NCBI GenBank assembly: GCA_028277585.1
Contig: JANQFY010000340.1
Location: forward strand, 1-63,395
DNA: 63,395 bases
Source: Sedimentisphaerales bacterium
GTDB lineage: Bacteria; Planctomycetota; Phycisphaerae; Sedimentisphaerales; Anaerobacaceae
Direction of reading: 5' to 3'
A model generated the notes under the pieces. That model had not been told where the DNA came from. It worked only from the letters and a program-made list of their open reading frames with translations, and did not search any database. Position numbers and translations under genes: made by a program. This document shows, in pieces, positions 5,343 through 42,085 of this stretch; position 1 is the first letter of the stretch, and each line of letters starts with the position of its first letter.

Positions 5343-5421
5343 GCGTGGTTAGCGCGTGGGTCCGGGACCCACTTCACAGAAACGATCGGCGCGGGACGAA
5401 CCCGCCGTACAGGAATCAGCT

Positions 5422-6660
5422 ATGCCAAGCGACAACGACAGCCCGGAATACCGCATCGAACCGGCGACGCGAATCACGCGTCTGCCCCCCTACCTCTTTG
5501 GACGCCTCAACGCATTGAAACTGGCCAAGCGCCAGCAAGGCGCCGACATCATCGATCTGGGGATGGGCAATCCCATGGACCCGGCCCCTGAGATCGTGAT
5601 CGACAAGCTCAGCGAGGCCGCCAAAGACCCGCGCAACCACCGGTACAGCGCGTCGAAGGGAATCAAAGGCCTGCGCAACGAGATGGCCAAGAAATACGCC
5701 GCCAAGTGGAACGTCGAACTCGACTGGGAGAGCGAAGTGCTCGCCTGCATCGGCTCGAAGGAAGGGTTCAGTCACCTGTGCCTGGCGATGCTGGGCCCGG
5801 GCGACACGGCGGTCGTGCCCGACCCGGCGTTCCCGATCCACAACTACGGCGTCGTCCTGGCCGGCGGAAATGTCATTACCGTCCCGCTGGGCAACGACCA
5901 GGAGTTCCTCGACACGATCGCAATGGTCTGCGAACACCTGTTCCCCAAGCCCAAACTGCTGATCCTGAACTACCCGCACAACCCGACCGCCATGACGGTT
6001 GAGGAGGGCTTCTTCGAGACGGTCGTCGATCTAGCCAAGCGGTTCAAGTTCACCGTCATCCACGATTTCGCGTACGGCGAGACCTGTTTCGACGGGTACA
6101 AACCCCCGAGCTTCCTCTCGGCCAAGGGCGCCAAGGACGTCGGCGTCGAGTTCACGACCATGAGCAAGCCCTATAACATGGCCGGTTTCAGGGTCGGTTT
6201 CGTCGCCGGCAACCGCGAAATGATCAACTACCTGGCGACGATCAAAGGCTACTACGACTATGGCATCTTCCAGGCGGTCCAGATCGCCAGCATCATCGCG
6301 ATGCGGCACTGCGACGAGTTGGTGACCGCCCAGAACGAGAAGTACCGCATCCGCCGCGACGCCGTCTGCGACGCCCTGGAGCGGATCGGCTGGGAGGTCG
6401 AGAGGCCCCGCGCGAGCATGTTCGTCTGGGCCAAGGTCGCCGAAGAGCACCTGCGCGGCAAGGGCACGATCGACTACGCCATGGACCTGATGGAGCACGC
6501 CGAGGTCGCGATCGCTCCCGGCGCCGCGTTCGGCGAGAACGGTGAAGGCTACATGCGCATCGCCCTGGTCGAGAACGAGCAGCGGCTGCGCCAGGCGATC
6601 CGCAACATCAGCCGTTTCGTGCAGGAAAAACCCATCCGCCGGTCCCGCAGCGGCCAGTAG
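5422..6660 (+). CDS. alaC: AlaC/YfdZ-type class I/II aminotransferase
   Basis: The product is a cytosolic PLP aminotransferase of 412 residues. The start at 5422 has AGGA upstream; a longer in-frame extension exists but lacks support. It shows DLGMGNPMDPAP at residues 45-56, NYPHNPTA at 183-190 for PLP/substrate binding, and the Schiff-base lysine K249 in TTMSKPYNMAGFRVGF. The family covers glutamate-pyruvate aminotransferases such as AlaC and related LL-diaminopimelate aminotransferases, so the exact substrate is inferred. The last 141 bp (6520-6660) reappear at 7358-7498 behind a small inserted gene pair; see the findings. It was probably once directly upstream of gap. Confidence 0.85.
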   Translation: MPSDNDSPEYRIEPATRITRLPPYLFGRLNALKLAKRQQGADIIDLGMGNPMDPAPEIVIDKLSEAAKDPRNHRYSASKGIKGLRNEMAKKYAAKWNVELDWESEVLACIGSKEGFSHLCLAMLGPGDTAVVPDPAFPIHNYGVVLAGGNVITVPLGNDQEFLDTIAMVCEHLFPKPKLLILNYPHNPTAMTVEEGFFETVVDLAKRFKFTVIHDFAYGETCFDGYKPPSFLSAKGAKDVGVEFTTMSKPYNMAGFRVGFVAGNREMINYLATIKGYYDYGIFQAVQIASIIAMRHCDELVTAQNEKYRIRRDAVCDALERIGWEVERPRASMFVWAKVAEEHLRGKGTIDYAMDLMEHAEVAIAPGAAFGENGEGYMRIALVENEQRLRQAIRNISRFVQEKPIRRSRSGQ

Positions 6661-6709
6661 AGCCCAGACCAACGGGGAGGGCATGCGGGGTCCTCTGCCG
6701 TGCGCGCCT

Positions 6710-6737
6710 TTGAAATCACGGCTGGAGACGCTATAAT
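6710..6737 (+). promoter_or_regulatory. promoter of the inserted small-gene pair
   Basis: TTGAAA (6710-6715) and TATAAT (6732-6737) are 16 bp apart, about 50 bp upstream of the first small gene. The inserted module therefore appears to bring its own promoter immediately behind the alaC stop codon. Confidence 0.55.
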
Positions 6738-6788
6738 GGTCTTCATGGCTAGCCCTGGTCACTGGTGTAAGAAGAGGATGCCTCCTCA

Positions 6789-7076
6789 ATGGCAAAGCTG
6801 TATGACACGATCCGCCGACTGGTCGCAGAGGAGAGATACGTCGTGGGAGAGCATGCAGTCCAACGCCTGGAAGAGCGAGGCATCCTGGAATGGCAGGCAG
6901 TCTTCGGCCTGGAGGCCGGGCAGTTGGTTCGGGAGCGCCCCGACGACCAGCCAAACCCTGCTGTCGAGGTCCAGGAACAACTGCCCGACGGAACGGAGTT
7001 CAAGGCCGTCTGGTCCTATCTGCCTCGCAGCGAGGTAGCCAAGTTGGTCACGGTTCACTTTTTCGATGAGGTTTGA
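6789..7076 (+). CDS. DUF4258-like small protein, putative toxin of a TA-like pair
   Basis: The product has 95 residues, starting MAKLYDTIRRLVAEERYVV. A GEHAVQRLEERGI helix is followed by a compact beta core ending EVAKLVTVHFFDEV. This pattern resembles DUF4258, a RelE/BrnT-like small fold common in toxin-antitoxin pairs; toxicity itself is inferred. The stop codon lies just ahead of the ATG of a second small gene, which implies translational coupling. The pair sits between alaC and a second copy of the alaC 3' end, so it looks like inserted cargo. A GAGGA/TCCTC mini-hairpin lies over the region just before the ATG. Confidence 0.65.
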   Translation: MAKLYDTIRRLVAEERYVVGEHAVQRLEERGILEWQAVFGLEAGQLVRERPDDQPNPAVEVQEQLPDGTEFKAVWSYLPRSEVAKLVTVHFFDEV

Positions 7077-7078
7077 GG

Positions 7079-7306
7079 ATGAGGATTCCCGGCAAGCGAG
7101 TCCTGCGAACGCGGCTGGTTCGAACGCGAGATTTCGTGGTGGCGGTCGAGGTTGAAGCTGTAATCCCGCCCGACGACGAAACTGAGCCCTGCTACGAAGC
7201 CGAGACTGTCCAACTGCTGCGCGACGTCGCCGAACACGCCGAGCAAGGGGATATCCACTGGCTCAAGCAGCACGGCAGAGTCTATCAGGCTCTGGAGGCC
7301 GGGTAG
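7079..7306 (+). CDS. small partner protein, putative antitoxin
   Basis: The product has 75 residues from ATG 7079. A TTG at 7073 in the same frame would overlap the upstream stop and is a possible alternative start. The N-terminus is basic (MRIPGKRVLRTRLVRTRDFVV) and a more acidic C-terminal half ends in HGRVYQALEAG. I recognise no named domain. The position immediately behind the DUF4258-like gene suggests a cognate partner, but the antitoxin role is inferred only from gene order and size. Confidence 0.55.
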   Translation: MRIPGKRVLRTRLVRTRDFVVAVEVEAVIPPDDETEPCYEAETVQLLRDVAEHAEQGDIHWLKQHGRVYQALEAG

Positions 7307-7357
7307 GACACCCCCACAAGCCACACCCCGCAAGAGTATCCCGTAGGCAACCGCACA

Positions 7358-7498
7358 GGCGCCGCCTTCGGCGAGAATGGCGAGGGGTATATGCGCATCG
7401 CCCTGGTCGAGAACGAGCAGCGTCTGCGCCAGGCGATCCGCAACATCAGCCGTTTCGTGCAGGAAAAGCCCATCCGCCGGTCCCGAAGCGGCCAGTAG
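7358..7498 (+). pseudogene. second copy of the alaC 3' end (46 codons plus stop)
   Basis: These 141 bp align without gaps to 6520-6660. Nine bases differ and all nine are synonymous third positions, so the encoded 46-residue tail and the TAG stop are identical. Homology begins abruptly near 7358 and continues a few bases past the stop. There is no start codon with a ribosome binding site, so it is not a functional gene on its own. It ends the inserted two-gene module. Confidence 0.93.
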
Positions 7499-7520
7499 AG
7501 CCCCGGAAACCGAGCCAGCC

Positions 7521-17614: not shown

Positions 17615-17893
17615 CTACTCCACCACCTCCGTTCCGTGATCAGTCTTGATCGCGTGGAAGTTCGGATCAGGCGAAAGGATGAGCGTGCTTTCACCTGATG
17701 CGACCACGAACCCTGACGACCAAACCTGCCCGGTCGCCGAGTCCAGAACAAAGGCGTGCGTGTCGTTTGTCTTGAGTTCGAACCGCCCGTACTCCTCCGG
17801 GAGCGCATACGGCACGGCTGCGATCAGGCAAAGGACTAGCGCCGCGGACAACGCTCCGATCAGAACACTCTTGATGTCAATGGAATGATGCAT
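17615..17893 (-). CDS. small membrane-anchored protein, tandem paralogue A
   Basis: The product has 92 residues. Residues 1-30 form a short N-terminal tail (MHHSIDIKSVLIG) and one transmembrane helix; the remaining 60 residues would be extracytoplasmic. The C-terminal part has AFVLDSATGQVWSSGFV and ends FHAIKTDHGTEVVE. The protein is about 65% identical by eye to the one at 18121-18390, most strongly in the first 30 residues and in the LDSATGQVW block. The function is unknown. GGGAG precedes the start in the shared 5' leader. Confidence 0.75.
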   Translation of the reverse strand: MHHSIDIKSVLIGALSAALVLCLIAAVPYALPEEYGRFELKTNDTHAFVLDSATGQVWSSGFVVASGESTLILSPDPNFHAIKTDHGTEVVE

Positions 17894-17932
17894 GAGTGGT
17901 CTCCCTTCTGTGATTCCCGCACATGTCGTCAG

Positions 17933-17953
17933 GGCCCTCCGAACGTCGGAGGG
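17933..17953. repeat. 9-bp hairpin between the tandem paralogues
   Basis: GCCCTCCGA and TCGGAGGGC flank a 3-nt loop just upstream of paralogue A on the minus strand. It could end or attenuate read-through from paralogue B; no T-tract follows on either strand. Confidence 0.5.
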
Positions 17954-18120
17954 CGCCGTGTCAGCAGCCTCATAGTATTAAGGCACGACGACAAGCTCGG
18001 GTTTCACAGTTCGCTCATTCCATTGCCACAAAGACGAAAAGACACGTTCCGGCACGAGGAGGATTCGAACCACACCAACCCCTGATCCAGGCGGGCCGCG
18101 TCACCGCGTGTCGGAACGGA

Positions 18121-18390
18121 CTACTCCGTCTCGTGCGCGGTCTTGATCGCGTGGAAGTCCGGATCGAATGGGAAGACGACCGAATTGAACTGCGGGTTGT
18201 ACACGAACCCGGCCGACCAGACCTGCCCGGTCGCCGAATCGAGAATGAAGGCGTAGCTGTCGTTCGCCTCCATCTTGAAGCGGCCCTGCTCCTCCGGCAG
18301 CACGTGAGGCACCGCCCCGATCAGGCAAAACACCAACGCCGCCAACAGGACTCCGATCAAAACGCTCTTAATGTCGATGGAATGATGCAT
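18121..18390 (-). CDS. small membrane-anchored protein, tandem paralogue B
   Basis: The product has 89 residues: the same MHHSIDIKSVLIG start and transmembrane helix as the gene at 17615-17893, then AFILDSATGQVWSAGFV and FHAIKTAHETE. The ten or so bases before the ATG (GGGAGACCACTC) match the other copy. The pair therefore arose by tandem duplication and both reading frames have been kept. The function is unknown; single-span anchoring with an outside domain is predicted. Confidence 0.75.
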   Translation of the reverse strand: MHHSIDIKSVLIGVLLAALVFCLIGAVPHVLPEEQGRFKMEANDSYAFILDSATGQVWSAGFVYNPQFNSVVFPFDPDFHAIKTAHETE

Positions 18391-18515
18391 GAGTGGTCTC
18401 CCTTCTATCTATGAATGCCGGATGATCCGACGGCCAACACAACGCAGTCAACGCCAAGACGGCGCACCGCATGGCGAACCTTCCTCACACATGAAACGAC
18501 GGGGGCGCCGCGTCG

Positions 18516-34238: not shown

Positions 34239-34868
34239 ATGATTGCCAAGATCGAAGGAATCCTCGTCACGCTCGACACCGAGACCGCGCTGGTGCAGGT
34301 CGGGCCGATCGCTTACGAACTCATGCTGCCCGGCTACTGCATCAGCGCCCTGGCCGGCAAGATCGGCGCCGAGGTCGCGCTGTGTACGATGGAGTACTAC
34401 GAGGGCACCCTGGGCGGCGGCAATCTGATCCCGCGCATGGTCGGCTTCCTCGACGCGGCCGAGCGGGCCTTCTTCGGCAAGTTCATCAGCGTCAAAGGCA
34501 TGGGCATCAAGAAAGGGCTCCGCGCCCTGAGCATGCCGATCGGCAATATCGCCGACGCGATCGAAGCCGGCGACGAGAAGATGCTCATGTCCATGCCCGG
34601 CGTGGGCCGCCGCATGGCCCAGCAGATCGTCGCCGAACTCAAGGGCAAACTCGAAGCCTTCGCCCTCGGCGTCGAGACGGGCGGCAAGGTCCAACCCGAG
34701 TTCCAGCCCTTCCAGGGCGAGGCCCTGGAGATCCTCGTCGCCTGGGGCGAGAAACGCCACGAAGCCATGGAACTGATCGAACTGGCCTGCCAAAAACACC
34801 CCGACATCACCACCGCCGAAGCCCTCGTCCCCCTCGTCTACCGCCTCAAACAAGGCGTCGAGGTTTAG
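34239..34868 (+). CDS. ruvA: Holliday junction branch migration protein RuvA
   Basis: The product has 209 residues from ATG 34239; an upstream extension would translate the repeat block. An OB-fold N-terminal domain (MIAKIEGILVTLDTETALVQV) is followed by two HhH motifs (GMGIKKGLRALS and MPGVGRRMAQQIV) and a flexible, acidic-linked domain III (residues about 145-209) that contacts RuvB. The last 65 codons (34674-34868) recur almost exactly at 35578-35772, and degenerate pieces lie at 39382-39462 and 41969-42049. It is the last gene of the hisC operon. Confidence 0.95.
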   Translation: MIAKIEGILVTLDTETALVQVGPIAYELMLPGYCISALAGKIGAEVALCTMEYYEGTLGGGNLIPRMVGFLDAAERAFFGKFISVKGMGIKKGLRALSMPIGNIADAIEAGDEKMLMSMPGVGRRMAQQIVAELKGKLEAFALGVETGGKVQPEFQPFQGEALEILVAWGEKRHEAMELIELACQKHPDITTAEALVPLVYRLKQGVEV

Positions 34869-34926
34869 AAGCCGTACCCTCGGAACGCCCGCGCCTCGTC
34901 GAAATAGCGGTGCTTTCCCCACGATT

Positions 34927-34943
34927 CAGTGAGAATCTCACTG
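34927..34943. promoter_or_regulatory. operator-like palindrome of the ParDE-type module
   Basis: CAGTGAGA-A-TCTCACTG is a perfect 8-1-8 inverted repeat that ends on the -35 region of the module promoter. Autoregulation by the antitoxin or the complex is the usual reason for such sites in TA modules. Confidence 0.55.
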
Positions 34944-34971
34944 ACACCAGCCGACCCCGATTTGGTATAAT
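34941..34971 (+). promoter_or_regulatory. promoter of the ParDE-type module
   Basis: CTGACA (34941-34946) and a perfect TATAAT (34966-34971) are 19 bp apart, somewhat long. They lie 40 bp before the antitoxin GTG. The promoter lies inside the inserted unit, just behind the ruvA stop. Confidence 0.5.
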
Positions 34972-35010
34972 ACGAGCTGATCGAAACGTGGTCCGTCAGC
35001 GGAGACAACT

Positions 35011-35199
35011 GTGAGTACGGCAAAAGAAGAAATCCAATCCTTGCTCGGCAAACTGCCAGATGATTGTACACTGGAAGACGTACAGTACCATCTGTACGTG
35101 CTCGGGAAGATACGCCGAGGGATCGAAAGAGCCGAGAGCGAGGGGACCGTTCCACAGGAGGAAGTCGAGAGGCGGCTGGCGAAATGGACCGCCGAGTAG
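35011..35199 (+). CDS. ParD-like antitoxin
   Basis: The product has 62 residues from GTG 35011, with GGAGAC upstream. MSTAKEEIQSLLGKLPDDCT, then LEDVQYHLYVLGKIRRGIER and a PQEEVERRLAKWTAE tail match a family of short antitoxins found directly before RelE/ParE-type toxins. The tail would wrap the toxin. It overlaps the toxin gene by 16 bp. The pair is the innermost cargo behind ruvA. Confidence 0.75.
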   Translation: MSTAKEEIQSLLGKLPDDCTLEDVQYHLYVLGKIRRGIERAESEGTVPQEEVERRLAKWTAE

Positions 35200-35513
35200 T
35201 CTGGTCGCCGGAGGCTCTTGAGGACGCTGAAGCGATAGCGGCATACATCGGTCGAGATTCAGCCGCCTATGCCTCGGCGGTGGTGACGAAGATTGTCGAG
35301 ACGGCGCGAGGCATTGCGAGCTTCCCGTGGATGGGGAGGGTCGTGCCGGAACTGGGCGACAACGAGATCCGGGAGCGATTCGTCTACAGCTACCGCGTCA
35401 TCTACCAGGTCCAAGAGAAGCGAATTCTGATCTTGGCCGCCCTGCACGGGAAGCGGCTGATCGAGAACATCTCGAACCGCTTCGACGAACCCGGCCAAGA
35501 AGGAACGAATTAG
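35184..35513 (+). CDS. RelE/ParE-family toxin
   Basis: The product has 109 residues from ATG 35184. VVWSPEALEDAEAIAAYI, then FPWMGRVVPELGDNEIRERF, VYSYRVIYQVQEKRILILAA and LHGKRLIENI form the complete ParE/RelE fold, with the basic and Arg-rich surface at GRVVPEL..REREF-like positions. ParE members poison gyrase and RelE members cleave mRNA; which applies here is unknown. It is translationally coupled to the antitoxin. Confidence 0.85.
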   Translation: MDRRVVWSPEALEDAEAIAAYIGRDSAAYASAVVTKIVETARGIASFPWMGRVVPELGDNEIRERFVYSYRVIYQVQEKRILILAALHGKRLIENISNRFDEPGQEGTN

Positions 35514-35577
35514 ACGGAGGCGGCGTGGGGATCAAGAAGGGGCATCTCTAATCTCAGTCCTGACTACGCCGAATGCT

Positions 35578-35772
35578 GAGACGGGCGGCAAGGTCCAACC
35601 CGAGTTCCAGCCCTTCCAGGGCGAGGCCCTCGAGATCCTCGTCGCCTGGGGCGAGAAACGCCACGAAGCCATGGAACTGATCGAACTGGCCTGCCAGAAG
35701 CACCCCGACATCACCACCGCCGAAGCCCTCGTCCCGGTCGTCTACCGACTCAAACAAGGCGTCGAGGTCTAA
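35578..35772 (+). pseudogene. second copy of the ruvA 3' end (64 codons plus stop)
   Basis: The 195 bp align without gaps to 34674-34868 with 8 differences. Seven are silent, including a TAG to TAA stop swap, and one changes Leu to Val. Just upstream, 35522-35543 encodes GVGIKKG, which matches RuvA GMGIKKG (bases near 34490-34510), so the copy was once longer and has lost its middle. It has no start codon. It ends the ParDE-like unit. Confidence 0.93.
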
Positions 35773-35875
35773 GGCCCGCCTCCGCAGGGAGGCCACACTC
35801 CTTGACTTCCCTCACCCTTTATGACTCTGATGTCACTCTCTGGGAATGTACCGGCCCCTACCGGTTCTCCAGGAG

Positions 35876-38800
35876 TCACGGTGTCTCTGAGCCGATTGTC
35901 CAGATCTGATGGGGAAACGTGATGTCGTCAATCCACGCTGCATCATCGCCTTCAGAGACGGACCCATCCTTCACATACTGCCACTCGAAGATGCGCGAAC
36001 CGGCCGTAACCGGATAGGACACGGTGAACCAGTCCTTTTCACCGGACCATTCGCCTTTTACGATTCCGTTGATGCTGAAGAAGAGTTTATCACAGGCAGA
36101 CTCGGAGGAGATTTTCGCCGAGAAGCTTATCTCACCGTCGACGCAATCCAACATCACCGTCAAGGTCGTGTCGTCGTCATCGTCGACGTTCGCCGCCTTG
36201 ACGCTGTAGTGGCCCGTGTGGGCGGCGTCGGAAACCACATGCCAACCCGGCCCACCGTAAGAGATCCACCCCAAAGTGGACAGGTCGCCGCTTTCGAAAT
36301 CATCGGTGGCAAGGCGGGCCGTCAACTCACCCTGGCTGACCAGCATCGGATACCCGTTGATTGGGGACATGCGCCAATGGTCATCGCCGCCATTGGTGGT
36401 TTCTTCCGTAAAATCCCAGCCGGCGTCCAGGTAGGTCTGCCGATCGCGCATCTCAGCCATGGTCAGCCCGGTGCCCGTAGCCGAGGACGACTGCCCGGAT
36501 GCTTCGAGATCCCAGAAGCTCTCCTGGGCATACCCCAGGTAGTGTCTCCCCACCAGCCCGCCAACGTAACTGGAGCGTCCGCTGACGGCGCCGGCGCTGT
36601 AGCAGCGGCGGGTCGTGCTTTCACGGCTGTATCCGATCAGTCCACCGACATAGTCCACCGCGTCGTCGATATTCGACGTGCTGTAGCAATCAAGCGTTTC
36701 ACTGCGACGATGGTCGCCAATGAGACCGCCGACATATTTGGTGCCCGAGATTTGCCCAGTACTGCAACACAGGGTCATCACCGTTTCATCAACCGCCCCC
36801 GCCAGTCCCCCGACCTCGAAACGCCCGGAGACGTCACTATTGCTCTGTGACGCGGTGATCGTAGTGTCACTGGTGTTGCCCACCAGCCCGCCGACACAAT
36901 TCCTCCCGGTCAAACTCCCCGCGCTGGAGCATCCGACGATCCGGGCGCCGCGAGCCTCGGCCGTTAGGCCACCGGCCTGGTCCAGTTGGCATTCGATGGA
37001 GATGCCCTTGATGGACAGATCGACGACTTCAGCTCCATCACTCAACACGCCGAAGAATCCCAGATGTCTTGTCCCCACGATGTGCAAGTTCCGAATAGCG
37101 TGACCACGACCGTCGAAGCGGCCTGAGAAACAGGGAATCACCGGCTGCGACGCCGTTTGGTTACCGGGTAGCATTGGGTCGAGCTCGAGGTCCGCCAGCA
37201 GGACGAAGTCTCTATTCCACAACGCACTGGATTTGGCGACCTTGGTCAACTGGTCCACATTCTCGATTTCGAAGGGCTCGTCCGGTGTGCCGGCGCCACC
37301 GATCCAATCGATCATCGGCTCGGGCACAATCTGCCCAGCGGTCCCTTCCCAGGCAAGACGGGGGTAGTCTCCGCCCGGTTCCAAACGCCAGCTCGGATCG
37401 TTCGCAAAGCCGTTCAGCCCCAGCATCTCAGCGTCCATCATTTCTGTGTGACTCAGGCCGGCGCCACCATCGCTACCCTCGATCCCGGACGCGTCGGTAT
37501 CCCAAACACTGTCCTCGATGCAACCTGCGATATTGGCTCCCACCAGCCCACCGGTGATGGCACCTGCTACGGCGCCGGCGCTGTAGCAGTCTCTCACCGA
37601 ACCACTTGAGACCTCTCCGATCAGCCCGCCCACATAGTAGTTGCCGCTGACGGCACCAAGACTGTAGCAGTTGAGGGTAGTCCCGCTGTAGCTCGAGCCG
37701 ATCAACCCGCCGACCATGTTGATTCCTTTGACAACGTTGACGCTGTAGCAATTGGCCGTACGCCCTGCACTGCGCCCCGCCAGAGAACCAACGTGGTCTT
37801 CACTTCCTTGGATCGAGCCGTCTTCCAGAGCAAGATCCGTAACGGAGGCCCGCCCCCCAAGGTAACCAAACAAGCCCAGATATCCCGCCCCCTGGATCTT
37901 GAGGTTCCGAAGCACATGCCCGTCGCCATCAAAACACCCATGGAACGAGGGGATGACCGCAACGGTCCAGGTTGTCCCGGAAAGCGAGATGTCCGAATCG
38001 AGGCGGTAGTGGGCAGTCGGTCGGTATGCGACGGCGGCCAGTTCTTCCGGAGTGGCGATCAGATAGGGATCTGTCGCTGTGCCCTGACCTCGCAGTTCGA
38101 GGGGTTCATATCCGCTGAAAACAGCGAGTATCGGATATCCACCTCCATCCGCCATTCGCCAAACTCCCGCGCAACCGTTGCCGGTCTCATGCGCGAAATC
38201 CCAGCCTGAGCCCGAGAACGTACTGGCATTCTGCATTTGGGCGGTCGTCAGGCCCGTGCCTCTCGCGCTGCTGCCTTGTCCGGACGTTTCCGTGTCCCAG
38301 AAGCAGTTGATCACGCCGCGACTGAACAAACTGGACCCGACCAAGCCGCCGGTCAAGGCCCCTGTCCCGGAGACGACACCGGTACTGTAGCTGTTCGATA
38401 CGCTGCCGTAGTTGTATCCGAGCAAACCTCCGACATAATTGCTGCCGGTGACGGAGCCGAGGCTATAGCTGTTGGAGATGCTGGCCTCCGAGTTGCCCCC
38501 GGCCAGCCCGCCAATAGCGTTGCCGCTTCCAGTGACACGTGCGGTGCTGCAGCAGTTCGACACACTGCCCGCGTAGTTGCCTCCGACCATACCGCCGACA
38601 TAGCCTCCCCCCGTGACGGCGCCGGTGCAGCAGCAGTTCCATATGCTCCCGTGATGATTGTATCCAAGCAGCCCGCCGACCCAGTTTCCGGAACCTTGGA
38701 TAGAGACATCCTCCATCTCAACGTCACGAACAACCGCTCTGCTGGTCAGGTAGCCGAAGAGTCCCAGGAACTCCTGCCCCACGATGTGGAGATTCCGAAT

Positions 38801-39100
38801 GACATGATGGTTGCCGACAAAAACACCGGTAAAAGGGACGCCCTCGAAGGTGCCTTCTGACGCACCGTTCTCGCCGGCAATGACGGCCCGGTCAAACGTG
38901 TGGCCTGACAGATCGATATCGGCCACCTGGAGGAAATACTTGTCGTAGTCGGCCGGCGTATCGCCCAGTTCGATGAGATCCTGAGCCGAAGCGATCAGAT
39001 AGGGATCGCCGGCGACCCCCTGCCCCCCCGAGTAACCATACAGCGAACCGGTCAGAAGCCCCGTACAAATGATGACTGCGATTGTCAGCGATCTCGCCAT
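35876..39100 (-). CDS. secreted GLUG-repeat protein, 1074 residues
   Basis: A signal peptide (residues 1-22) is followed by three similar blocks. Each opens with a GDPYLIAS/TDPYLIAT/DEPFEIEN entry, then LSGxxxxxAVI and FxGxFDGxGHxIRNLxIxG, then many YVGGLLGYNxGSxxxCYSTG-type GLUG motifs. The C-terminus (about residues 955-1074) is a jelly-roll-like domain beginning DDFESGDLSTLGW. GLUG repeats form beta-helices in surface adhesins and associated proteins. GGAGG precedes the ATG. It is the second cargo behind ruvA, flanked by ruvA copies at 35578 and 39382. Confidence 0.85.
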   Translation of the reverse strand: MARSLTIAVIICTGLLTGSLYGYSGGQGVAGDPYLIASAQDLIELGDTPADYDKYFLQVADIDLSGHTFDRAVIAGENGASEGTFEGVPFTGVFVGNHHVIRNLHIVGQEFLGLFGYLTSRAVVRDVEMEDVSIQGSGNWVGGLLGYNHHGSIWNCCCTGAVTGGGYVGGMVGGNYAGSVSNCCSTARVTGSGNAIGGLAGGNSEASISNSYSLGSVTGSNYVGGLLGYNYGSVSNSYSTGVVSGTGALTGGLVGSSLFSRGVINCFWDTETSGQGSSARGTGLTTAQMQNASTFSGSGWDFAHETGNGCAGVWRMADGGGYPILAVFSGYEPLELRGQGTATDPYLIATPEELAAVAYRPTAHYRLDSDISLSGTTWTVAVIPSFHGCFDGDGHVLRNLKIQGAGYLGLFGYLGGRASVTDLALEDGSIQGSEDHVGSLAGRSAGRTANCYSVNVVKGINMVGGLIGSSYSGTTLNCYSLGAVSGNYYVGGLIGEVSSGSVRDCYSAGAVAGAITGGLVGANIAGCIEDSVWDTDASGIEGSDGGAGLSHTEMMDAEMLGLNGFANDPSWRLEPGGDYPRLAWEGTAGQIVPEPMIDWIGGAGTPDEPFEIENVDQLTKVAKSSALWNRDFVLLADLELDPMLPGNQTASQPVIPCFSGRFDGRGHAIRNLHIVGTRHLGFFGVLSDGAEVVDLSIKGISIECQLDQAGGLTAEARGARIVGCSSAGSLTGRNCVGGLVGNTSDTTITASQSNSDVSGRFEVGGLAGAVDETVMTLCCSTGQISGTKYVGGLIGDHRRSETLDCYSTSNIDDAVDYVGGLIGYSRESTTRRCYSAGAVSGRSSYVGGLVGRHYLGYAQESFWDLEASGQSSSATGTGLTMAEMRDRQTYLDAGWDFTEETTNGGDDHWRMSPINGYPMLVSQGELTARLATDDFESGDLSTLGWISYGGPGWHVVSDAAHTGHYSVKAANVDDDDDTTLTVMLDCVDGEISFSAKISSESACDKLFFSINGIVKGEWSGEKDWFTVSYPVTAGSRIFEWQYVKDGSVSEGDDAAWIDDITFPHQIWTIGSETP

Positions 39101-39650
39101 CCTCCACCTCCTCTGTCACCTCTCATCTCTCAGAGACTCTTCTTGACTCGACGACGCCTCGGCGCGCCCTGAACGAATCGAAGAAACGGCCTCACGATTG
39201 GCTCCGCCCGCCTCGCGAACAGCCCCACCGACACTTCATCCACTACTTGATTATAGCCATTCGCGAACAAAACTCAAGACATCCCCTCAAGAAAAGCGGT
39301 GATTGCTCTTCAATGAGGGAACGCCATACTCGATTTGATAGCGAAACAGTCAACCCAATCCGAAGAAGGTCGAACTTCCTCTGTCGGAAACACTCCGAGG
39401 TCACCACCCTTGAGACGCTGGTCTCTCCCGTCTAACGACTCAAACAAGGCGTCGAGGTCTAAGGCTCACCCCCTCCCAGAGTCAACGCGACCGGTCACAA
39501 TGGGTATGGCATCCCCCCGGGCAGCTTGCCTTGGGTCTTCGAGTCGTGTATGATGAGGGGCAGAGACAGCAGGAGGAACAGGAAAACCGGGATGGTGGTG
39601 TGTCGCGGAAGACGCCGCGGACACCTCAGTACAAACGTGCGGAGGAATTT
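39101..39650. other. intergenic region with a ruvA remnant
   Basis: No intact gene is visible between the divergent GLUG and BNR genes. It contains the third ruvA 3' copy at 39382-39462. The rest appears non-coding; an open frame before 39651 lacks a start with a ribosome binding site. Confidence 0.6.
39382..39462 (+). pseudogene. third, degenerate copy of the ruvA 3' end (27 codons)
   Basis: The frame reads CRKHSEVTTLETLV...RLKQGVEV and aligns codon for codon with RuvA CQKHPDITTAEALV...RLKQGVEV. It has about 75% base identity to ruvA, 78% to the copy at 35578, and an internal TAA. The last 30 bp (39436-39465) match the second copy exactly, stop codon and the following GGC included. Confidence 0.85.
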
Positions 39651-41867
39651 ATGATTACGCTCATGGCGATTCTTGCTTGCGGGTTCATGCCCACGGTCTC
39701 TGGGGATGAGTTACTCTCCGAGGAAACGATACCGGTTTGGCGCAACCTGGGTCCAGGGGGAGGCGGATGGATTCAAGCCATCTGCGCCAGCGGCCAGCGG
39801 GAAGAGGAATTGCTCGTCGGCTGTGACGTGGGCGGCTTCTATCGCTCGACCGACGGCGGGGCCAGCTACACGATCAGCAACAGCGGATTGCGGGACGATT
39901 TCGTCGAGTGCATCGTGCCCGATCCGCTAGACGGCGAGGTGATCTATCTGGGCTGCCAGAGCGGCGTGCACCGGTCCACCGACCGGGGCGAAACATGGCA
40001 GTGGCTGCGCGAGGGGTTCCCGCCCAGGAATCGATGGGACTGGTCGGCCCCGATCGGCGCATTGGCCATCGATCCGCAGGACCCGGCGGTGCTCTACGCC
40101 GGCATCGGCAGACCCCGGTGGGAGCACTTCGGCAAGGGCGCCATCTACAAGACGGTGGACCGTGGAGAGCACTGGCAGCAGATCAACGCGTCCGGCAGCC
40201 TTCCCGCCGACGCCCTTGTGACGGACCTGGCAGTCGACCCGCAAGACAGCCGCCGGCTCCTGATGGCGTGTCAATACGGCGTGTATTGCAGCGAGAACGG
40301 CGGAGTCACCTGGGACCCCGTGGTCGCCGGGCTGCCACACCCACACGTGCGCCGGGTCGCCTTCTGCCTTGGGCAGCCCGACGTTGTGTATCTGACCCTA
40401 TGGGCGAAGCCGGGCCAGTGGCCCTGGCAAGGCGGCGTCTACAAGTCCGTCGATCGCGGGGTGAACTGGTCGCCGTGCCTGCAGGGCCTGCCCCGGTACG
40501 TGGGCCAACCCGGCCAGGCGAGCGAGAGGACCGCCAATTACGATCGCCTCGCCGTGCATCCCGACAACCCCGATGTGGTCTACGTCGGCGGTTGCTCCTG
40601 GGGGAATGCGGATATCTACAAGACCACCAACGGCGGTCGGACCTGGGCCGGCACCATGCATCGCGGGATGGGGGGCAACACCGAGGACGGATGGATCACC
40701 TTCTGGGGGCCGGACGTTCAATGCCTGAGCATGTCACCCTTCAATCCCGAGACACTGTACTTCGGGACTTCGGGGAAGGTCTACAAGACCACCGACGGCG
40801 GCGAGCACTGGCGCCAAGTCTACACACACATGCTCCCCGACGGGCGGTTTCAGGGAACCGGGCTGGAGGTAACCTGTGCCGTCGACGTCGTCGTTCACCC
40901 GGCCGATCCGCAACGACTGTATTTCTGCTACCTGGACATCGGTCTGCTGATCTCGGAGGATGGAGGACAGTCGTTCCGCCGAGGCGTCCAGGGCGTGACT
41001 CCCTCGGCGATGCAGGGCAACTGCTACGCGCTCGTCTTCGACCCGGCCAACGACGCGCATTGCTGGGCAAGCTTCGGGGGCGGCTCGCGCGCCATCGTGG
41101 CCGAGTCCTACAACGGCGGCAGCACCTGGACCACGGTGGGCACGACCGCCGGGGGCCTGCCCGATGTGCCCCACCGCGTGTTACGCGTGGACGCCGCCGG
41201 CCACCTGATCGCGGTGGCGGACAATCTGGGCGTCTATCTCAGCGAAGACAGCGGACGGACCTGGCAGCCGCGCGGCGGCGGTCTGCCCCATGGGGACGTG
41301 CGCGGTCTGGTGGTGGATCCAACAGAGCCGGGCCGGTGGTGGTGCGCGCTGGGCGACGACGGGACGAATCCGGGCGCCGTATTCCGCACAATCGACGCGG
41401 GACGCGCCTGGCAACGGATCAGTCACGACCTGCCGGTAGCGGACGTTCAGCGGTTCCTGCTGGCCCCGAGCGATCCCCGGCGTTTCTATCTGGCGGCCCG
41501 CGACCGCTACGTGGGCGGGCGGACCTACCACGGAGGCGTCTATCGCAGTGACGACCGCGGGGTCACCTGGGACCACATCCTTCCGGACGACTTCGTTATG
41601 GGATTGGCTGTGGACCCGAGCTCGGCCAACATCGTATACGCGGGGCTCACCGACCATCCCTTTCACGACGAGTCAAGAGGTGACGGGATCCGCGTGACAT
41701 ACAATGGCGGGCAAACGTGGTACACGCCGGAGCAGCCGACATGCCTGCACATCAGTAGCATCACCGTGGACACACACGATCCTAGCCAGCTCTATCTCAG
41801 CACCGGCGGCAACGGCGTCTTCGTCGGCAGCCCGCCACACCTCGGACCGACACGCCGGAAGAGGTAA
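39651..41867 (+). CDS. secreted BNR-repeat/GH74-like beta-propeller protein
   Basis: The product has 738 residues from ATG 39651, with a strong GGAGGAATTT site. A signal peptide (to about residue 19) is followed by repeated YRSTDGGASYT, HRSTDRGETWQW, YKTTNGGRTWAG and YLSEDSGRTWQPRG Asp-box blades, as in xyloglucanases of GH74 and in VPS10-like sortilins. Two seven-bladed propellers would fit the length. Catalytic Asp residues cannot be assigned with certainty, so enzymatic function is open. It is the third cargo behind ruvA and ends shortly before the fourth ruvA fragment. Confidence 0.8.
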   Translation: MITLMAILACGFMPTVSGDELLSEETIPVWRNLGPGGGGWIQAICASGQREEELLVGCDVGGFYRSTDGGASYTISNSGLRDDFVECIVPDPLDGEVIYLGCQSGVHRSTDRGETWQWLREGFPPRNRWDWSAPIGALAIDPQDPAVLYAGIGRPRWEHFGKGAIYKTVDRGEHWQQINASGSLPADALVTDLAVDPQDSRRLLMACQYGVYCSENGGVTWDPVVAGLPHPHVRRVAFCLGQPDVVYLTLWAKPGQWPWQGGVYKSVDRGVNWSPCLQGLPRYVGQPGQASERTANYDRLAVHPDNPDVVYVGGCSWGNADIYKTTNGGRTWAGTMHRGMGGNTEDGWITFWGPDVQCLSMSPFNPETLYFGTSGKVYKTTDGGEHWRQVYTHMLPDGRFQGTGLEVTCAVDVVVHPADPQRLYFCYLDIGLLISEDGGQSFRRGVQGVTPSAMQGNCYALVFDPANDAHCWASFGGGSRAIVAESYNGGSTWTTVGTTAGGLPDVPHRVLRVDAAGHLIAVADNLGVYLSEDSGRTWQPRGGGLPHGDVRGLVVDPTEPGRWWCALGDDGTNPGAVFRTIDAGRAWQRISHDLPVADVQRFLLAPSDPRRFYLAARDRYVGGRTYHGGVYRSDDRGVTWDHILPDDFVMGLAVDPSSANIVYAGLTDHPFHDESRGDGIRVTYNGGQTWYTPEQPTCLHISSITVDTHDPSQLYLSTGGNGVFVGSPPHLGPTRRKR

Positions 41868-41968
41868 GCGGTAGGGGCTAGCGGAGATCGCCTTCGTTTC
41901 AAGCCCTCGTGGGTTTTGGCGGCTATCCGGAGAAACTAGAGGATTGCGGTCGCAATCCCGTTCAGTTG

Positions 41969-42049
41969 GCATGGGACGAGAAACGCCACGAAGCGATGGA
42001 ACTGAGCGAACTGGGCGTGCCCCAAAACCCCGACATCACCACCGCCGAA
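41969..42049 (+). pseudogene. fourth, partial copy of ruvA (27 internal codons)
   Basis: The frame AWDEKRHEAMELSELG..PDITTAE aligns without gaps with RuvA AWGEKRHEAMELIELA..PDITTAE (bases about 34741-34821), with about 85% base identity. The true gene end is missing. It lies between the BNR gene and the converging PEP-CTERM gene, in the outermost position of the ruvA array. Confidence 0.88.
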
Positions 42050-42085
42050 CGAGCGACCGCAGACCCTCAGTTGCCGCGGCTTCGA

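Follow-up and report, generated by a model that had tools for sequence, protein, structure and literature searches.

Displaced housekeeping-gene ends beside toxin-antitoxin pairs suggest cargo capture by homologous recombination in a planctomycete family

In the planctomycete genome studied herein and in its relatives, toxin-antitoxin (TA) pairs and other cargo lie between an intact gene and extra copies of that gene's own end (tails). We consider it probable that these tails are displaced resident gene ends, one for each past capture of cargo by homologous recombination, and that no dedicated integrase took part. Capture is supported by the gene-end repeats themselves, by empty sites at asnS, by a cargo unit that is more alike between genomes than its surroundings, by an untailed linkage in genome G005, and by homology boundaries at stop codons. 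The window referred to below is the whole 63,395-nucleotide stretch of DNA that was analyzed.

Serial ruvA gene ends in the window

Beyond the ruvA gene, the window holds three extra copies of its 3' end, all on the plus strand and each behind a cargo unit:

34239-34868, plus strand: ruvA, intact gene (NCBIfam TIGR00084, above cut-off)
34674-34868, plus strand: ruvA tail copy 1, the gene's own last 195 bp
35011-35513, plus strand: cargo unit 1, whole (62-aa ORF and ParE)
35011-35199, plus strand: 62-aa ORF of cargo unit 1, putative antitoxin, no family match
35187-35513, plus strand: ParE toxin of cargo unit 1 (PF05016, E 2e-15)
35578-35771, plus strand: ruvA tail copy 2, 96.4% identity without a gap, its own stop TAA against the gene's TAG
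35876-39100, minus strand: cargo unit 2, GLUG-motif protein of 1074 aa (PF07581)
39370-39461, plus strand: ruvA tail copy 3, 76% identity, with a TAAGGC ending and CGACTC in common with copy 2
39531-41867, plus strand: cargo unit 3, BNR/Sortilin-type protein, 778-aa ORF (PF15902, PF02012)
41969-42049, plus strand: ruvA tail copy 4, 89% identity with one gap, 85% ungapped, without the gene's last 48 bp

A preliminary description of the window had reported these serial copies and the cargo order (a small ORF with ParE, then GLUG, then BNR/Sortilin), and both are borne out, the latter by domain matches. When the whole assembly was searched with the ruvA 3' end, copies 2, 3, and 4 gave E-values of 1e-87, 6e-11, and 6e-22, with the next match at 0.03; the array copies were the sole significant matches, and none was found beyond the window array. 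Further, aligned locally, the two weak copies score 96 and 122, compared with shuffled maxima of 30 and 39. The source genome is a metagenome assembly in 532 contigs and 80% complete, a state that could favor chance matches or assembly error, to which one might add that ruvA was simply duplicated in tandem and later suffered losses. We find these explanations scarcely credible: divergence between the copies amounts to 4-25%, the matches are highly significant genome-wide, and other assemblies show this arrangement around different genes, with empty sites; a tandem duplication, moreover, brings in no foreign cargo.

The nearest copy had been described as 96% identical and gap-free, as measured here, and the farther ones as damaged and about 75-85% identical, which holds for copy 3, while copy 4, its end missing, falls in that range only when aligned without a gap. 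The further claim, that decay at ruvA grows with distance, does not hold, since identities run 96, 76, and 89% and the farthest copy is better kept than the middle one. Copies 2 and 3 have bases in common, plus the TAAGGC ending, that are absent from the present ruvA end, which fits an import of the present end together with the ParE unit. As stated previously for integrases, domain assignment of the ORFs between the ruvA tail copies revealed no recombinase. Separately, an 8-bp inverted repeat (GCGGTCGC/GCGACCGC) brackets tail copy 4 (window 41946-42060).

Empty sites and serial insertion at asnS

At asnS, filled and empty states can be compared directly. Specifically, G001 and G002 align up to the asnS stop codon, where G001 carries 734 bp (parDE); after this insert, homology resumes 63 bp before the stop and proceeds into the native downstream DNA of G002. 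The order in G005 is asnS, parDE, tail, GNAT, tail, with G004 providing the empty site, and the outermost asnS tail of G005 continues for 1.5 kb at 92% into the native downstream DNA of G004. These single-copy empty sites in sister species demonstrate insertion at asnS and show the G005 locus to be a serial insertion, with the older ends outside. Repeated insertion with older ends moving outward was the reading originally given to the ruvA array; it is upheld by the asnS empty sites, and at ruvA itself we infer it.

Between G001 and G005, the parDE unit is 98.3% identical, compared with 94.2% for asnS, 91.9% for ruvA, 93.8% for ruvB, and 86% for the displaced tail. Because the unit is more alike than its surroundings, it seems that the parDE unit itself was exchanged more recently, in an exchange that ended in or near the flanking tails.

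The ruvA-ruvB junction in relatives

Among relatives of the window's genome (named Phycisphaerae, Phycisphaerales, or Sedimentisphaerales), ruvB lies directly 3' of ruvA at 65 of 80 ruvA loci, and an insert of 2.7-4.3 kb parts the two genes at 6 of the 80. An extra same-strand ruvA tail was found at none of these 80 loci, with a short inverted match at one. Comparison of the downstream regions in relatives thus revealed the empty and alternative states anticipated in the preliminary description, and the same array in no relative; among sister genomes there was no matching filled and empty pair at ruvA, and no donor was found with ruvA followed by the window's parDE pair.

Within the genus of the window's genome, ruvA lies apart from ruvB or on a different contig. 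In G003 (CP070782), contig coordinates place ruvB 4.4 Mb away from ruvA, and immediately 5' of ruvB (locus L040, 7409-8800) there is a 128-bp ruvA tail. This tail marks the ancestral ruvA-ruvB junction and is a scar left when the junction was broken with its tail duplicated. That it stems from the same event as copy 4 of the window was considered and rejected, as copy 4 carries bases specific to the window's genome; the unusually similar ruvA tails of the window's genome and G003 were likewise set aside as evidence of transfer, since the gene is a mosaic throughout and the likeness hence uninformative. In another relative, G029 (L049, 241-3995), 3.75 kb lie between ruvA and ruvB, and the DNA 5' of ruvB resembles, by eye, a Vsr-type endonuclease gene; on this reading, R-M cargo may also use the ruvA-ruvB junction.

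Gene-end repeats around TA loci

A second, independent gene-end duplication occupies window 6520-7503, with a GAPDH gene just after it:

5416-6660, plus strand: class I/II aminotransferase gene (PF00155), whose end (6520-6665) recurs downstream
6789-7306, plus strand: putative TA pair, whole (DUF4258 protein and 77-aa partner)
6789-7076, plus strand: DUF4258 protein (PF14076, E 1.5e-9)
7073-7306, plus strand: 77-aa partner of the DUF4258 protein
7358-7503, plus strand: copy of the aminotransferase gene end, 94% identity over 146 bp

In G005, a related DUF4258 pair comes next after the same aminotransferase gene and no second tail could be detected, which is the layout expected of a donor; alternatively, the untailed locus may be an old insertion that has lost its second tail to decay. 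A possible third case in the window (17705-17909 and 18202-18406) was rejected as tandem paralogous ORFs. The two ORFs in question (window 17615-18390, minus strand, about 90 aa, DNA 76-80% identical) represent an ordinary gene duplication.

Across the family, direct repeats of at least 50 bp flank 14 of 76 ParE and DUF4258 loci, compared with 4 of 400 random points, where the TA loci sampled were the best-scoring ones, one unit is common to G001 and G005, and the control points came from the genus only, with three stretches containing known cases left out; the counts indicate enrichment, rather than an exact rate. All four random-point repeats fall inside large genes. The repeats around TA pairs are 68-194 bp long. 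Gene-end cases involve ruvA, the aminotransferase, and a 319-aa ORF in the window's genome (G000), asnS in G001 and G005, accD in G009, a gene without assigned identity in G003 (L138), and a probable metal-hydrolase end, named from sequence alone, in G092. A further scan of 0.78 Mb, in stretches not picked for TA loci, yielded one case: in G002, a DUF2283 protein with a partner of 98 aa lies between two copies of the guaA end. Most anchors recognized to date are conserved housekeeping genes; in the relatives, three genes beside asnS, guaA, and accD are less certain anchors, and the cargo at all six is a TA pair. At alaS in G029 (L202, 1117-1950), an orphan upstream stretch and gene start precede a ParE pair, with the intact alaS behind, a layout that we read as the 5'-end version of a gene-end repeat. 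A process aimed at ruvA or at 3' ends alone, as first envisaged, is not supported: the anchors include many housekeeping genes, and at alaS a 5' end is involved.

Over some 2.0 Mb of sequence drawn from four genomes of the genus, a sample in which some stretches were picked for TA loci and the rate is accordingly not free of bias, orphan gene 3' ends occurred solely beside TA pairs, units of the same array apart, and no clear orphan gene start was found. The cargo seen (ParE, DUF4258, GLUG, BNR, and GNAT) includes no R-M system. At three other TA loci (L204, L219, and L135), the flanking direct repeats, of 95-182 bp, are not gene ends.

A site-specific integrase acting in trans could insert circles bearing a replacement gene end, like islands at guaA or tRNA genes, and would account for gene ends that are restored, for displaced ends that are left, and for the presence of guaA among the targets. 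We regard such an integrase as highly improbable, given that none is present among the intervening genes, that the targets are unrelated genes with no common core seen by eye, and that divergence runs along the whole repeat, with no core spared.

Where homology stops

The similarity of intact and orphan copies gives out near the stop codon, no more than 9 bp away from it, in all gene-end cases; both copies keep an in-frame stop, except for ruvA copy 4, whose end is missing. Homology that runs to the stop codon supplies the one homologous side of the incoming DNA that is expected of homology-facilitated illegitimate recombination or a single crossover. Further, the stop codons themselves differ in four genes: ruvA (TAG/TAA), guaA (TGA/TAG), accD (TAA/TAG), and the 319-aa ORF (TGA/TAG). 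As trailers are not conserved, alleles from different lineages would part at the stop codon; the boundaries and the differing stops fit a pair of alleles of a single gene end and not a blunt duplication of the target.

The main alternative, put forward for type II R-M systems, is a true insertion that duplicates a long stretch of target: a staggered or re-copied site leaves 70-200 bp of target duplicated, and gene ends are enriched since only gene-sparing insertions survive. It would explain the 68-194-bp direct repeats around TA pairs with their single-copy empty sites, the 5'-end case at alaS, and the noncoding cases, and for R-M systems duplications in the order of 100 bp have been described (PMC3874152). 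We nevertheless consider it unlikely. A blind target duplication has no reason to end at a stop codon, such that the halt of repeat homology there in every gene-end case argues against it, as do the differing stops in four genes and the states that ruvA copies 2 and 3 share and the intact end lacks, even if part of the differences between copies may reflect later divergence.

A model of capture by homologous recombination

In the capture that we propose, foreign DNA consisting of a related species' gene end and what lies 3' of it, typically a TA pair, would recombine with the resident gene within conserved coding sequence, and the other side of the incoming piece would be joined inside the tail of the same gene, either through end-joining into a circle or at an illegitimate junction. 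The gene would stay intact, now with an imported stop codon followed by the cargo, while the resident tail would be pushed outward together with its stop codon and the native downstream DNA. Repeated captures would build arrays with older tails outside, and a finished tail-cargo-tail unit could pass between species via ordinary recombination in the flanking tails. TA pairs are retained through addiction; we infer both the molecular route (RecA, with a circle or a one-sided event) and addiction as the reason for persistence. Against capture stand ruvA copy 4, which is without the gene end, and the noncoding repeats at L204, L219, and L135, which are unexplained by a gene-anchored model alone.

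More tentatively, it is possible that tail-cargo-tail is a general integrase-free mobile format, in which conserved housekeeping genes lend their ends as homology arms for moving TA pairs and other small cargo between species, in ordered stacks that TA addiction prevents from being lost. The means by which small chromosomal TA pairs move about without a transposase or integrase has long been a puzzle; displaced gene ends preserve a trace of such moves, showing where they took place, in which order units arrived, and which allele the recipient had of its own. With conserved anchors, such units could be sought in any genome via orphan gene ends, and the mechanism is directly testable in the laboratory.

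Comparison with known systems

Integrative islands at gene 3' ends restore the gene end and leave the displaced end behind. The units described herein share the restored gene end and the displaced old end, and differ from such islands in having no integrase, no shared core apparent by eye, and units of less than 1 kb around TA pairs.

On insertion, R-M systems can leave long duplications of variable length, about 100 bp, according to PMC3874152, which cites Nobusato et al. 2000 and Furuta et al. 2010. Common to both are a small addictive gene pair, the lack of its own recombinase, a long, variable direct duplication, and single-copy empty sites; unlike R-M insertion, the present cases involve TA pairs and other cargo, copies that meet at stop codons, stops that can differ, and serial arrays. 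In Escherichia coli, molecules with one homologous end were mostly integrated by a single crossover, leaving duplications of 109-950 bp (PMC3240628). The resemblance to such homology-facilitated illegitimate recombination, or integration of circularized fragments, lies in one homologous end, one non-homologous joint, and a duplicated locus (PMC3240628), whereas those events were marker-selected in the laboratory, and classical one-sided events delete resident DNA that is kept here. In Vibrio cholerae, T6SS effector-immunity arrays have been explained through successive homology-facilitated events that left displaced 3' ends (PMC5361080). There, too, successive insertions at one anchor shifted older ends outward (PMC5361080), but the anchor is the effector gene, which is replaced, in contrast to the intact housekeeping genes and TA cargo here.

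A literature search covering a minority of subscription journals turned up no account of housekeeping-gene ends flanking TA pairs. The suggestion that the process might be undescribed goes too far in its full sense, as R-M insertion with duplications of about 100 bp and homology-facilitated arrays have already been described. What sets the present units apart from these is the cargo, the intact housekeeping anchors, and the stop-codon boundary.
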